The notes beneath the pieces were generated by a model. The model saw only the letters and a list, made by a program, of their open reading frames with translations. It was not told the origin of the DNA and searched no databases. The translations under genes and the position numbers were made by a program. Below, one piece after another: positions 2,852-56,874 of a stretch of DNA of 64,000 nucleotides (position 1 is its first letter; each line of letters opens with the position of its first letter). Source of the DNA: Thalassospira sp. MCCC 1A03138 (GTDB lineage: Bacteria > Pseudomonadota > Alphaproteobacteria > Rhodospirillales > Thalassospiraceae); assembly GCF_002115785.1 (NCBI RefSeq), contig NZ_JFJY01000003.1, positions 124,001-188,000 of the forward strand, read 5' to 3'.

Positions 2852-3311
2852 ATGCGAGCCCTTGGTAAATACGCCAAACAGTAATTTTGAGCGCCTTTTA
2901 GCACATAGCTTCGCAACTGCCAACGCACAGCGGCATATGTTGCCAAAGTTTTAAGTCAGCAACTTTTAAGCGTACAGAACGACACTTGACTACACTTAAA
3001 AAAGACATTCACACCCATTGCGTTAGAAAATCATCAACTAAAGAAAAATGACGGGAGTATACATTGATATAAACCCCACCATACGCTGTCGAACAAAATC
3101 GACGAAACAAAAGGTTTGGAATCTTTATCAATTAAACCGCATTACCGGTCATGCCTTTGCTGATTTTATTTATTTCTCATCTCGCATGGGTTTTCTTTGT
3201 TTTGAAAATTTAAGTAGAATCGATATATTGAATAACAGTCTTGTTTGACTATATTCGTAAAATAATGCAAAAAGCATTGCCTATTCATAATAGCGAAGGA
3301 AATATTTTAAG
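2852..3311. promoter_or_regulatory. Divergent intergenic region between rpiB and the mucR-like gene
   Basis: This 460-base stretch has no convincing gene. From about 2930 to 3310 it is clearly richer in A and T than its neighbours, with many T-A steps. That fits the kind of DNA that MucR/Ros proteins are known to bind, often at their own promoters, so autoregulation is plausible (inference). A short open frame at 3048-3248 has atypical composition and no recognisable motif. A ribosome-binding AAGGA lies 10 bases before the mucR-like ATG. Confidence 0.5.
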
Positions 3312-53467: not shown

Positions 53468-53574
53468 TTTGATCCAGCAACAGCGATCCGTTACGGACAG
53501 TTGAACCGTTTGCGGTTTGCCAAAGCGAACACCATATTCGATCAAACCCAGTTCGACAGATGAGGCCAGAGCAA

Positions 53575-54273
53575 ATGTCAGAAAATGCACTTACTTCCTG
53601 CCGCGCATTCGTTTTCGATGCCTATGGTACCCTGTTCGACGTTGGATCGGCCGTTGACCGGTTCAAGGAAACCATCGGGGATGAAGCAGACCGGCTTTCA
53701 AGTATCTGGCGCCAAAAGCAGCTTGAATATACATGGCTGCGCAGTCTGATGGGCGACTTCACGGATTTCTGGAATGTCACCGGTGACGCTCTTGATTACG
53801 CCATGGCAGCAACCGGAAAAAAAGACCCCGCCCTTCGCGCAAAACTTATGGAAACCTATCTGTCGCTTGATACTTTCCCCGAAGTTGTTGAAACCCTGAA
53901 AACACTTAAATCCCAAGGGCACAAGCTGGCGATCCTGTCGAACGGCGCCAAACATATGCTGATTTCAGCAGCAAAGGCATCCGGGATTCTATCACTGTTT
54001 GACCAGATCATCTGTGTGGATGATATCAAAACGTATAAACCGCACCCCGAGGTCTATCAGCTTGCGGTCGACCAGCTCGAATTGACGCCCGCCGAAATAT
54101 CATTCCAGTCGTCTAACGGATGGGATATTGCCGGTGCCGGGCATTTCGGGTTCCGCACGGCCTGGATCAACCGGACGCAGCAGCCAACAGAACGCCTGTC
54201 TCATAGCGCAGACGTGGTTTTAAAAGGCCTGGACGAGCTGCTGCCGCTAGTCGCACAGCCGGAAAAAGCCTGA
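53575..54273 (+). CDS. Haloacid dehalogenase, type II
   Basis: A 232-residue L-2-haloacid dehalogenase-type HAD protein. The nucleophile D15 is in VFDAYGTLFDVGS. Motif II is AILSNGAKHML, the catalytic lysine is in DDIKTYKPHPEVY, and the type II signature SSNGWDIAGAGHFGF follows. In characterised relatives these residues hydrolyse 2-haloacids with inversion. The natural substrate in an organism without known haloacids may differ. The ATG at 53575 starts MSENALTSCRAF; another ATG lies five codons upstream. It ends in a terminator. Confidence 0.88.
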   Translation: MSENALTSCRAFVFDAYGTLFDVGSAVDRFKETIGDEADRLSSIWRQKQLEYTWLRSLMGDFTDFWNVTGDALDYAMAATGKKDPALRAKLMETYLSLDTFPEVVETLKTLKSQGHKLAILSNGAKHMLISAAKASGILSLFDQIICVDDIKTYKPHPEVYQLAVDQLELTPAEISFQSSNGWDIAGAGHFGFRTAWINRTQQPTERLSHSADVVLKGLDELLPLVAQPEKA

Positions 54274-54320
54274 AAACCGGGCCCGCGAAGTACGCCAATT
54301 CCGATCAGACCGAATAAAGA

Positions 54321-54357
54321 AAACCCGGAAAAGCGATTTGCAGCTTTTCCGGGTTTT
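54321..54357. terminator. Bidirectional terminator after the dehalogenase
   Basis: The stem AAACCCGGAAAAGC/GCTTTTCCGGGTTT lies between the convergent dehalogenase and bactofilin genes. Confidence 0.93.
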
Positions 54358-54401: not shown

Positions 54402-54860
54402 TTATTGTTTGTGTTCTTTCTTCACGTTCGCGGCAACGATCTGACCGGCCTGAATGACGGTAAGACCGCCCTCTTCGACGGCACCTTCAATGCGACGGCA
54501 ATGGCCTTCGATATGGGCACCCGGTTCGATCGACAGGCTTTCATGAAGGATATCGCCCAGCATACGGGCCGTTTCTGCGAGTGAAACGTCACGGGCGCGA
54601 ACCTGACCGGTGACAGAACCACAAATGCGAACCTTTTCGGCGACAATCTCGCCGCGGACTTCGCCGTTCTGACCAATTGTCAGGGTACGCGTGCGAATGT
54701 CGCCATTCACAAAACCGTCCACCTGAACATCTGATTCAGAGATCAGATCACCGGTAACCCGAAGATCGGAATTGATAATCGACAGACCGCCTCTTTTCTC
54801 GGTCACCGAATTATGGGAATTAGTCGTTGTCTGCTGTCTCTTGCTCGTTTTTGAAAACAT
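54402..54860 (-). CDS. Bactofilin family cytoskeletal protein
   Basis: Bactofilins polymerise into membrane-attached filaments that localise cell-wall enzymes. The 152-residue protein has a short polar N-terminus (MFSKTSKRQQTTTN), then the DUF583 right-handed beta-helix at about 30-130. Its repeats read DVQVDGFVNGDIRT, TIGQNGEVRGEIVAE, VRICGSVTGQVRARDV and LSIEPGAHIEGHCR. The ATG at 54860 lies inside the 3' end of the upstream M23 peptidase gene; the 41-base overlap is in a different frame. That linkage and the known bactofilin/M23 partnerships suggest a joint role in local peptidoglycan remodelling. Confidence 0.93.
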   Translation of the reverse strand: MFSKTSKRQQTTTNSHNSVTEKRGGLSIINSDLRVTGDLISESDVQVDGFVNGDIRTRTLTIGQNGEVRGEIVAEKVRICGSVTGQVRARDVSLAETARMLGDILHESLSIEPGAHIEGHCRRIEGAVEEGGLTVIQAGQIVAANVKKEHKQ

Positions 54861-56166
54861 AATGTCCCGCCTCAATAAACTTGATGGGGTCTACCTGCTT
54901 GTCGTGAACCAGAACTTCATAGTGCACGTGGCTGCCGGTGCTACGGCCGGTACTTCCCATCAATGCGATTTTGCCCTTTAAATTCACTTCGTCGCCCTTC
55001 TTGACGAGGACCTTGTATAGATGTCCGAAACGGGTTCGAAGGCCGTTACCATGGTCAATTTCGACCATCTTCCCGTATTTTCCGCTCCATCCGGCGAACA
55101 CCACCTTTCCGGGGGCCGTCGCATAGATTGGTGTTTTCATGGGCCCGGCAAGATCAACGCCGGAATGAAAAGCCCATTTACCGTTGATAGGGTCCTTGCG
55201 CTTCCCGAAAGAACTGGAAAGGTAATAGGAATCCGCAGGCTCCCCCAACGGGGTTCTTTTTATTCTATCATGCAGACTTACCAGCTGATCCATACGATCA
55301 CCCACTGCAAGTGCCACACTTACAAACTGTTCGTCCTCGGGGTGCTCGGGCTCGAACGCCACGAACGGTCCACCCACACCACCGGCAACCTCGCCACCTC
55401 CCGGTGCCTGAGGCTTCATCGGCGGTGTAATGATCTCGTCAACCGTAAGACCAGTCATCTCAAGAACCGATTCCAGTTCCAGAATGGTACTGTCAGCGGT
55501 TTCCGCCACGCGCTGCATCGCCTGCTTCTGGATGGTATGCAGATCGGCAATGCGCTGACGTGCTTCACCAAGTTCCGATTGCAGTTTTTTCGAACGCTGC
55601 ATGGCCTGATCACGCTCACGCATAACCCGCGACATGACGGTTTCGACAGTTTCCAGTTCGTCGCGCAAGGCAAGATTTCGGTTGGTAATCCCGTCAATCT
55701 GGGTCTGGAGCGCGTTCATCTGATTATCCATTGATGTCCGCAAGGCGGAAATCTGGACTTTTTCCTTTTCACTGACCGCCAGTTTCGAGGTGTAATCCTG
55801 AACCCGGGCCTGCAGCATCAAATTCTTTTCAGCCATCGACAGAAGATTACGGTGGGTATCTTCCATCTGTGATGTGATTTCACCAAAACGGCGCTGGCTT
55901 TCGGTGACACGTGCGATCAACTGATTGTAGGAAAGCTCGCTGCGAAACAGCTGTTCTTCACGCGTGGCAAGCCGTTGATCAAGATACCAGGAATAACCCG
56001 ATACCCCGACCGTCCAAGTGATCGCAAGGACCCCGACCGATGCCAATGTCAGTTGAGCGTATTTGCCAATCCGCACTTGAGAAACGGAATCATTGGACCG
56101 CACAAGAATGTGCCGGTCCGGAAACCATTTTTCAATCAGGCGACGGCCACGTTCGAACGCCGACAT
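54820..56166 (-). CDS. Coiled-coil M23 metallopeptidase (LmdC/LytM-like)
   Basis: A 448-residue envelope protein. Residues 1-36 are cytoplasmic, one membrane anchor lies at about 37-62, a long coiled coil spans about 70-230, and a Gly/Pro linker precedes a LytM domain at about 310-435. The zinc ligands of an active peptidase are present: H334 and D338 in HSGVD and H415 in HVHYE (413-417), with H413 as catalytic partner. Active peptidases of this family cut peptide cross-links in peptidoglycan. It overlaps the bactofilin gene. Comparable bactofilin/M23 pairs control cell shape in Helicobacter and in alphaproteobacteria. Confidence 0.93.
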   Translation of the reverse strand: MSAFERGRRLIEKWFPDRHILVRSNDSVSQVRIGKYAQLTLASVGVLAITWTVGVSGYSWYLDQRLATREEQLFRSELSYNQLIARVTESQRRFGEITSQMEDTHRNLLSMAEKNLMLQARVQDYTSKLAVSEKEKVQISALRTSMDNQMNALQTQIDGITNRNLALRDELETVETVMSRVMRERDQAMQRSKKLQSELGEARQRIADLHTIQKQAMQRVAETADSTILELESVLEMTGLTVDEIITPPMKPQAPGGGEVAGGVGGPFVAFEPEHPEDEQFVSVALAVGDRMDQLVSLHDRIKRTPLGEPADSYYLSSSFGKRKDPINGKWAFHSGVDLAGPMKTPIYATAPGKVVFAGWSGKYGKMVEIDHGNGLRTRFGHLYKVLVKKGDEVNLKGKIALMGSTGRSTGSHVHYEVLVHDKQVDPIKFIEAGHYVFKNEQETADND

Positions 56167-56391: not shown

Positions 56392-56874
56392 ATGCGTTTA
56401 TCCCAATTCATGCTGACCTGTGCTGCAACATGGTTTTACAGCGGACGAACCACCAAGGCACCTGGCACGATGGGATCGCTGGCCGCTGTTCCTGTGGGCT
56501 GGGCAATTGCCGTTTTGCTGGGATACCCGGCTCTGTTGGCCGGAATTGTCATCGTATTCCTTGTAGGAATTCCGATTTCCCATAAATACAGCGAGATGAT
56601 CGGGGTTCACGATCCCGGTGAAATCGTCATCGACGAAGTTGCAGGGCAATGGCTTTGCATACTTGTCGTTCCGCTGGGCAACGAGCTTGCCGATCTCGGC
56701 TGGCTGGCGGCGGCATTTGTCATGTTCCGGTTTTTCGATATTCTGAAACCCTGGCCGATCCGCTGGATCGACCGCCGGATCAGCGGTGGTTTTGGCATCA
56801 TGCTTGATGACATCCTTGCGGGCATATTTGGCATGTTTGTATTGATCGCCGCCCGCTACTTTGCAGGAGTTTGA
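56392..56874 (+). CDS. pgpA: Phosphatidylglycerophosphatase A
   Basis: PgpA dephosphorylates phosphatidylglycerol phosphate in the inner membrane. The 160-residue protein has YSGRTTKAPGTMGSLAAVPV near the N-terminus and the acidic signature HDPGEIVIDEVAGQWLCI (73-90), both diagnostic. About four hydrophobic segments are visible. Six bases separate it from the cinA-type gene. It is divergent from the M23 peptidase gene, with about 225 bases between them; that gap contains no recognisable operator. Confidence 0.93.
   Translation: MRLSQFMLTCAATWFYSGRTTKAPGTMGSLAAVPVGWAIAVLLGYPALLAGIVIVFLVGIPISHKYSEMIGVHDPGEIVIDEVAGQWLCILVVPLGNELADLGWLAAAFVMFRFFDILKPWPIRWIDRRISGGFGIMLDDILAGIFGMFVLIAARYFAGV

Follow-up and report, generated by a model that had tools for sequence, protein, structure and literature searches.

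A bactofilin start codon held in a fixed register inside the M23 peptidase gene lmdC of Thalassospira and other Alphaproteobacteria

Introduction

Genes for M23 peptidases often adjoin bactofilin genes, a neighborhood reported for 226 species (Pohl et al. 2024, PMC10945521), and the initial annotation of the locus described here was correct to treat such partnerships as known. Among the closest described systems is the lmdC-bacA operon of Rhodospirillum rubrum (Rru_A1868-Rru_A1867; PMC10945521), a member of the same order as Thalassospira, where deleting lmdC, bacA or both raises cell curvature and where the pair reduces curvature from the inner curve. The tail of LmdC binds BacA with a KD of about 15 uM. 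In the R. rubrum LmdC hairpin, a change of R25-H26-L27 abolishes enrichment at the inner curve, and a change of R30-S31 has similar defects (PMC10945521).

The pair does not serve the same purpose in every bacterium. Hyphomonas neptunium has a two-gene operon as well, with a 17-bp lmdC/bacA overlap, but its LmdC is essential and the pair serves the growth zones of stalk and bud rather than curvature; in the available text of that study the word overlap appears once, for these 17 bp (PMC10945521). Helicobacter pylori likewise joins a bactofilin, CcmA, with the M23 proteins Csd1/Csd2 in a shape complex, although its assemblies lie at the outer curve (PMC10945521). BacA of Caulobacter crescentus (2n3d) has the bactofilin core and a membrane-targeting start, MFSKQAKS, that exemplifies the consensus MFSKKKK, whereas the only client reported in the available text is the synthase PbpC and not an M23 peptidase (PMC12448750).

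Here we describe an lmdC-bacA pair of Thalassospira in which the bactofilin gene begins inside the peptidase gene, and we compare the position of that start among relatives across the order and the class.

Results

The lmdC-bacA locus

The stretch of DNA analyzed (64,000 nucleotides, referred to as the window) comes from a draft assembly of Thalassospira sp. MCCC 1A03138 of 4.56 Mb in 33 contigs. In the window lmdC and bacA are adjacent on the same strand with lmdC first (Table 1), and with a divergent pgpA upstream and a convergent HAD-like gene downstream the pair resembles a two-gene unit. Judging by its sequence, the hairpin between bacA and the convergent gene is likely a bidirectional terminator of both; the region held five terminator-like sites against 4.6 expected, and only this perfect stem is notable among them. 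Compared with Rfam at gathering thresholds, the window gave no matches.

Table 1. Features of the lmdC-bacA region, in coordinates of the window.
Feature	Position	Strand	Remarks
HAD-like gene	53560-54273	+	named by eye; convergent with bacA
15-bp perfect hairpin	54320..54357		flanked by T-rich sequence on each strand; separates bacA from the convergent gene
bacA (bactofilin, 152 aa)	54402..54860	-	ATG at 54860
Bactofilin domain, residues 27-121	54498..54782	-	predicted beta-strand-rich (beta-helix type) core
lmdC (M23 peptidase, 448 aa)	54820..56166	-	cytoplasmic tail, TM helix, coiled coil, M23 domain
lmdC/bacA overlap	54820..54860	-	41 nt
MFSKTSK, BacA membrane-targeting sequence	54840..54860	-	coded inside the lmdC 3' end; matches published consensus
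GAGGCGGGA, ribosome-binding-site-like run	54865..54873	-	from lmdC codons Glu-Ala-Gly; just before the ATG
Rejected alternative start TTG	54873..54875	-	at the upstream edge of the Shine-Dalgarno-like run
LmdC M23 domain, residues 333-427	54886..55170	-	PF01551; H334, D338, H413, H415 invariant
LmdC predicted coiled coil, about residues 62-237	55456..55983	-	AlphaFold2 helices; TM boundary by eye
LmdC residues 15-33	56068..56124	-	FPDR and predicted beta-hairpin (18-24, 27-33); R18-H19-I20 / R23-S24
pgpA (phosphatidylglycerophosphatase A)	56392-56874	+	divergent from lmdC; PF04608 match

The lmdC product matches PF01551 (E=6.8e-32, residues 333-427) and the domain of unknown function PF19353, DUF5930 (E=2.1e-8, residues 8-249); in NCBIfam 16 models matched the peptidase, none above its cut-off. 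The four residues that we take to be the zinc ligands of the M23 motif HxxxD...HxH (H334, D338, H413 and H415) are invariant across 27 aligned relatives, as are H372 and H382. The complete ligand set that the initial annotation had read from the sequence is thus present, as is expected of an LmdC-type M23 peptidase. An AlphaFold2 model (mean pLDDT 80.5, pTM 0.49) begins with a short helix, passes through a beta-hairpin (strands 18-24/27-33) into a helix of residues 35-157 that holds a hydrophobic segment, and continues with a second helix (166-237) and the M23 domain. The two helices are predicted to form a transmembrane (TM) helix plus coiled coil, in line with the long coiled coil claimed earlier, and a short tail with a beta-hairpin ahead of these elements is the predicted architecture of LmdC, shared with R. 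rubrum. Foldseek matched the model to M23 peptidases that include H. pylori Csd1-Csd2 (5j1l), which was also among the sequence matches.

The alignment of 27 relatives has the N-terminal consensus FPERQxxxRTxGR. Within it, R18-H19-I20 and R23-S24 of the window's LmdC are spaced as in the BacA-binding clusters of R. rubrum, R25-H26-L27 and R30-S31, so that by sequence the hairpin carries the R/H/L and R/S clusters for BacA binding; R23 is invariant and R18 at least 90% conserved in the 27 rows, and H19 is replaced by Q or E in most of them.

The bacA product matches PF04519 (E=1.1e-25, residues 27-121), no NCBIfam model matched it, and a search with the bactofilin family profile hit Caulobacter BacA 2n3d (E=2.4e-34), the match beginning at position 1. 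Together with an AlphaFold model that has a strand-rich core at pLDDT >90, these matches identify a BacA-type beta-helix core, and the first residues, MFSKTSK, fit the membrane-targeting pattern M-F-S-K-x-x-K.

The bacA start codon

The initial annotation had the bactofilin gene start within the 3' end of the peptidase gene and share 41 bases with it, and both points hold, since the ATG lies 41 nt inside lmdC. This ATG is kept in 29/29 Thalassospira loci. The TTG at 54875, which the ORF lister gave as the bacA start, was rejected; it is missing in five of the 29 loci (L034-L038). The wobble bases of GAGGCGGGA are invariant at 3/3 sites in the 29 Thalassospira, compared with 8/56 in the preceding lmdC codons (p=0.007), and ATGTTTTCAAA is identical in all 29 loci, with little variation at its synonymous sites. 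The conserved ATG, the invariant wobble bases and the agreement of MFSKTSK with the published membrane-targeting sequence argue that the overlap is real. It is very improbable that the start was mis-called and that the true one lies past the peptidase stop, with no overlap at all. Later in-frame GTG or TTG codons do occur in some loci, the window's included, and one locus (L054) has ATA where ATG is expected; however, a later start would remove the MFSK motif, the identity of ATGTTTTCAAA and its low synonymous variation speak against it, and the window's bacA has no later ATG ahead of the core.

The overlap phase is identical at 56/56 order-level loci, 29 of them from Thalassospira, and the start is present at 55/56, so the overlap is not due to chance. 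We found no RNA structure around the bacA start, with 190 of 200 shuffled sequences folding equally well or better (z = +1.6), and a structure that hides the start was rejected on this basis.

A fixed start register and a drifting stop

The 41-nt length itself is not conserved. The overlap measures 41 nt at 21 of the Thalassospira loci, 44 nt at six and 38 nt at two; it is mostly 17-23 nt in the other families of the order and, with the order and class sets taken together, ranges from 11 to 62 nt. Conservation lies instead in where the bacA start falls inside lmdC, while the lmdC stop drifts. When the peptidases are aligned on the motif F-I-x-A-G-x-x-V-F, the bacA start codon consists of the second and third bases of the codon that precedes Val and the G of Val; in the peptidase tail this register falls at 'AGxYVF'. 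It follows that the 41 nt of the window correspond to the common 17 nt lengthened by eight peptidase codons, an extension that the genus shares with small changes.

The register is kept at 27 of 28 order-level loci, drawn at about one per family, and in 49 of 63 adjacent pairs at the class level, for a total of 76 loci in sets whose genomes are related and do not represent independent events. Three of the class-level pairs were scored as not in register because the ATG is out of the bactofilin frame (L196, L204) or the codon is ACA (L183), and L221, with a poorly aligned register column, is also counted as not in register within the 49/63. By genome, 51 of the 65 members of the class draw that have both genes show the register overlap, a count that includes two (G000, G050) whose loci are in the order set. 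Among 80 named contigs found with a bactofilin alignment (the best 80 of 198 relatives), 77 have an ATG-Phe start that overlaps in the register phase; L100, L107 and L139 do not.

Several loci depart from the pattern in ways of their own. L054 (G059) is the only order-level locus without the ATG; it has ATA at the exact place, and the peptidase Val is changed to Ile, which could reflect a sequencing error in this 81% complete draft or a rare start. At L100, L139 and L149 the peptidase tail is long and its last residues are SVARN, SVAKN or NVARN, and the bactofilins there probably start at MDI[RK]RII, without MFSK and without overlap. At L107 (about 2950-3020) a bacA copy has no lmdC detectable in the 3 kb upstream, even by an unfiltered search, and about 15 lmdC tail codons remain just before and over the bacA start (NPMRFIKGGRHVFQE followed by a stop). 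An intact pair, L098, is present in the same draft genome. L107 is either a duplication or an assembly artefact; if it is not an artefact, the bacA copy has retained just the end of lmdC that carries its start signals.

Dual coding within the overlap

Among the 29 Thalassospira there is little variation at the third positions of bacA codons 2-7: their minor-base fractions are 0, 0, 0.14, 0.17, 0 and 0.10, whereas 90 core codons of bacA average 0.36 (Mann-Whitney p=1.6e-4). In the peptidase, the residue that the ATG dictates is Val at 48 of 49 in-register class loci and at 1 of 19 others. This comparison is partly circular, because Val is unavoidable wherever an ATG in the register precedes Phe, and its informative half is the loss of Val elsewhere. 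The 19 comprise five LmdC genes from genomes that gave no bactofilin match, a single M23 gene with opposite-strand bactofilins and 13 adjacent pairs out of register, and the rarity of Val among them indicates that the peptidase itself does not require this residue. A strong constraint of the overlap on the neighboring peptidase Phe was not supported (F/Y at 30/49 in-register and 8/19 other class loci, Fisher p=0.18).

On the bactofilin side, TTT makes up 55 of the 75 Phe codons at codon 2 in register, an excess when these same genes supply the background (p=2.5e-10, 55/74 scorable loci). The excess is smaller relative to 26 ATG-Phe bactofilins outside the register (12 TTT, 14 TTC; p=0.016), and it may partly be a start-region effect.

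These patterns bear on the possibility that the overlap is a frozen accident, in which the start, ribosome-binding site and membrane-targeting sequence of bacA became embedded in lmdC codons, any change hurts one protein or the other, and the register is kept without a benefit from coupling. A fixed register with a wandering stop, a Val that the peptidase can do without, and the scarcity of wobble variation inside the overlap are all as this explanation predicts. On the other hand, 14 of the 63 adjacent class-level pairs are out of register and yet remain neighbors; escape is therefore possible, and a pure accident should decay more often. We give the frozen accident slightly less than an even chance.

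Overlap distance and the translation of bacA

In published work, which measured gaps rather than long overlaps, reinitiation is centered on stop-start distances of -4/-1 and drops fast with distance; compared with -4, distances beyond the range of -8 to +6 nt occur at most one tenth as often (PMC10666635). Here the start lies 41 nt from the stop, and 11-62 nt in relatives, which places the pair outside the window of about -8 to +6 nt that characterizes termination-reinitiation. Because the start-stop distance both varies and exceeds the usual range, the overlap is weak evidence for coupling. The initial annotation had argued that tight coupling supports a filament that positions a cell-wall hydrolase. 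Homology, the LmdC hairpin and co-occurrence uphold the functional idea, whereas the step from overlap to coupling is weak at 11-62 nt.

It is possible, though somewhat unlikely in our view, that the overlap does serve translational coupling, through termination-reinitiation or co-translational assembly, that it fixes the ratio of scaffold to hydrolase, and that the register was selected for this purpose. The frequency of the in-register overlap in the class-draw genomes is consistent with selection, and subunits of complexes are often coded by overlapping pairs (PMC10666635). Against this stand the variable overlap length, given that reinitiation is centered so close to the stop; the conserved Shine-Dalgarno-like run of bacA and the unstructured RNA, which fit independent initiation; and L107, since a bacA with just a short remnant of the lmdC tail would, unless an assembly artefact, be hard to reconcile with obligatory coupling. 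Because the distance is long and drifting, the start is preceded by a run resembling a ribosome-binding site, and the RNA is unstructured, we find independent initiation at a frozen, dual-coded start more probable than reinitiation maintained by selection. At the gene level, we infer that bacA has its own such run and start within lmdC codons. Most likely ribosomes translate both genes from a single two-gene mRNA and initiate at bacA independently, at least in part.

It is tempting to speculate that the observed register was selected for a different reason, namely that new BacA is anchored beside LmdC from the same mRNA, so that scaffold and cutter assemble in cis across the Alphaproteobacteria; this purpose is a proposal that we consider improbable.

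Co-occurrence of lmdC and bacA

In a draw of 150 genomes from the order, 131 have both genes, five LmdC only, none a BacA-type bactofilin only and 14 neither, counted as presence in the genome and not as adjacency (BacA-type: PF04519 E <= 2e-22, a cut set after the table was seen). In a draw of 144 from the class the corresponding numbers are 65, 5, 9 and 65. Here LmdC presence (70/144) was judged by eye from matches that reach upstream of the M23 domain, with G171 (L212) left out, bactofilin presence (74/144) means E <= 1e-15, and no bactofilin means no match at these thresholds. Fisher p-values for co-occurrence are tiny, but they ignore kinship; the thresholds were set after seeing the tables, and missing draft contigs may remove both adjacent genes at once.

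All 65 class-draw genomes with both genes have them as neighbors on one strand in the order lmdC-bacA. The neighborhood is therefore more conserved than the overlap, as 14 of these pairs are out of register.

Five genomes (G260, G249, G221, G174, G205; loci L207-L211) have LmdC orthologs and no bactofilin match at threshold, and the VF pair is found in 0/5 of their peptidase tails. At L212 (G171) three consecutive bactofilin frames lie on the strand opposite to an M23 gene.

Discussion

The LmdC-BacA morphogenesis module, in which a scaffold positions a wall cutter, is probably represented in Thalassospira by this locus and most likely modulates curvature there. By analogy with orthologs, BacA would bind the inner membrane through MFSKTSK and polymerize, and the polymer would recruit LmdC through the beta-hairpin of its short cytoplasmic tail. 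The coiled coil of LmdC would extend into the periplasm, where the zinc M23 domain would cut peptidoglycan locally and, as in R. rubrum, most likely modulate curvature. The BacA-LmdC interaction, the enzymatic activity of LmdC and the effect on cell shape were demonstrated in R. rubrum (PMC10945521), whereas for Thalassospira we infer them from such orthologs. The functional link rests on the hairpin, on co-occurrence and on ortholog experiments, and not on the overlap.

The initial annotation fairly called the function in this organism open, and we found no literature with both 'bactofilin' and 'Thalassospira'. A role in curvature is to be expected because R. rubrum, of the same order, curves more upon deletion and because Thalassospira is described as spirilla-shaped (PMC7179689). 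Nevertheless, the phenotype does not follow from the genes, as the H. neptunium pair serves growth zones and not curvature. The pair might instead set cell width or division-site growth in Thalassospira, and its confinement of growth zones in H. neptunium offers a precedent; with a curvature phenotype in R. rubrum, the relative of the same order (PMC10945521), we regard this as unlikely.

The genome encodes a second bactofilin and has six other M23 matches, and redundancy or other partners are possible. The second bactofilin gene (G000:C12, L066 6395-7132, minus strand) has its own MFGKKK start, possibly from an inner ATG. Its neighbors, named by eye, look like an EI24-type gene and lolA, with no M23 among the listed ORFs.

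The module itself is already published, and the class-wide dual-coding register appears to be a new detail: among the papers listed for bactofilins and gene overlap, none describes a conserved bactofilin start register. With this locus, a shape module that was defined by experiment gains a member in a spirillum-shaped marine genus, which yields a concrete prediction, that losing the pair increases Thalassospira curvature. The fixed register also offers a test case for whether long conserved overlaps reflect translation coupling or dual-coding lock-in, and it comes with natural controls, as most sampled lineages are in register, some are not, and a few lack a bactofilin at this place.

The membrane anchor of BacA is reported to contact PG lipid headgroups (PMC12448750), and a phosphatidylglycerophosphatase gene is divergent from lmdC in the window. 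We found no literature that names both 'bactofilin' and 'pgpA', and pgpA as a class-wide neighbor was not supported, as we read only G000, G222, G203 and G253 as having it beside the pair in the class draw. Among the named loci (the best 80 of 198), 65 of 80 have a pgpA match on the opposite strand.
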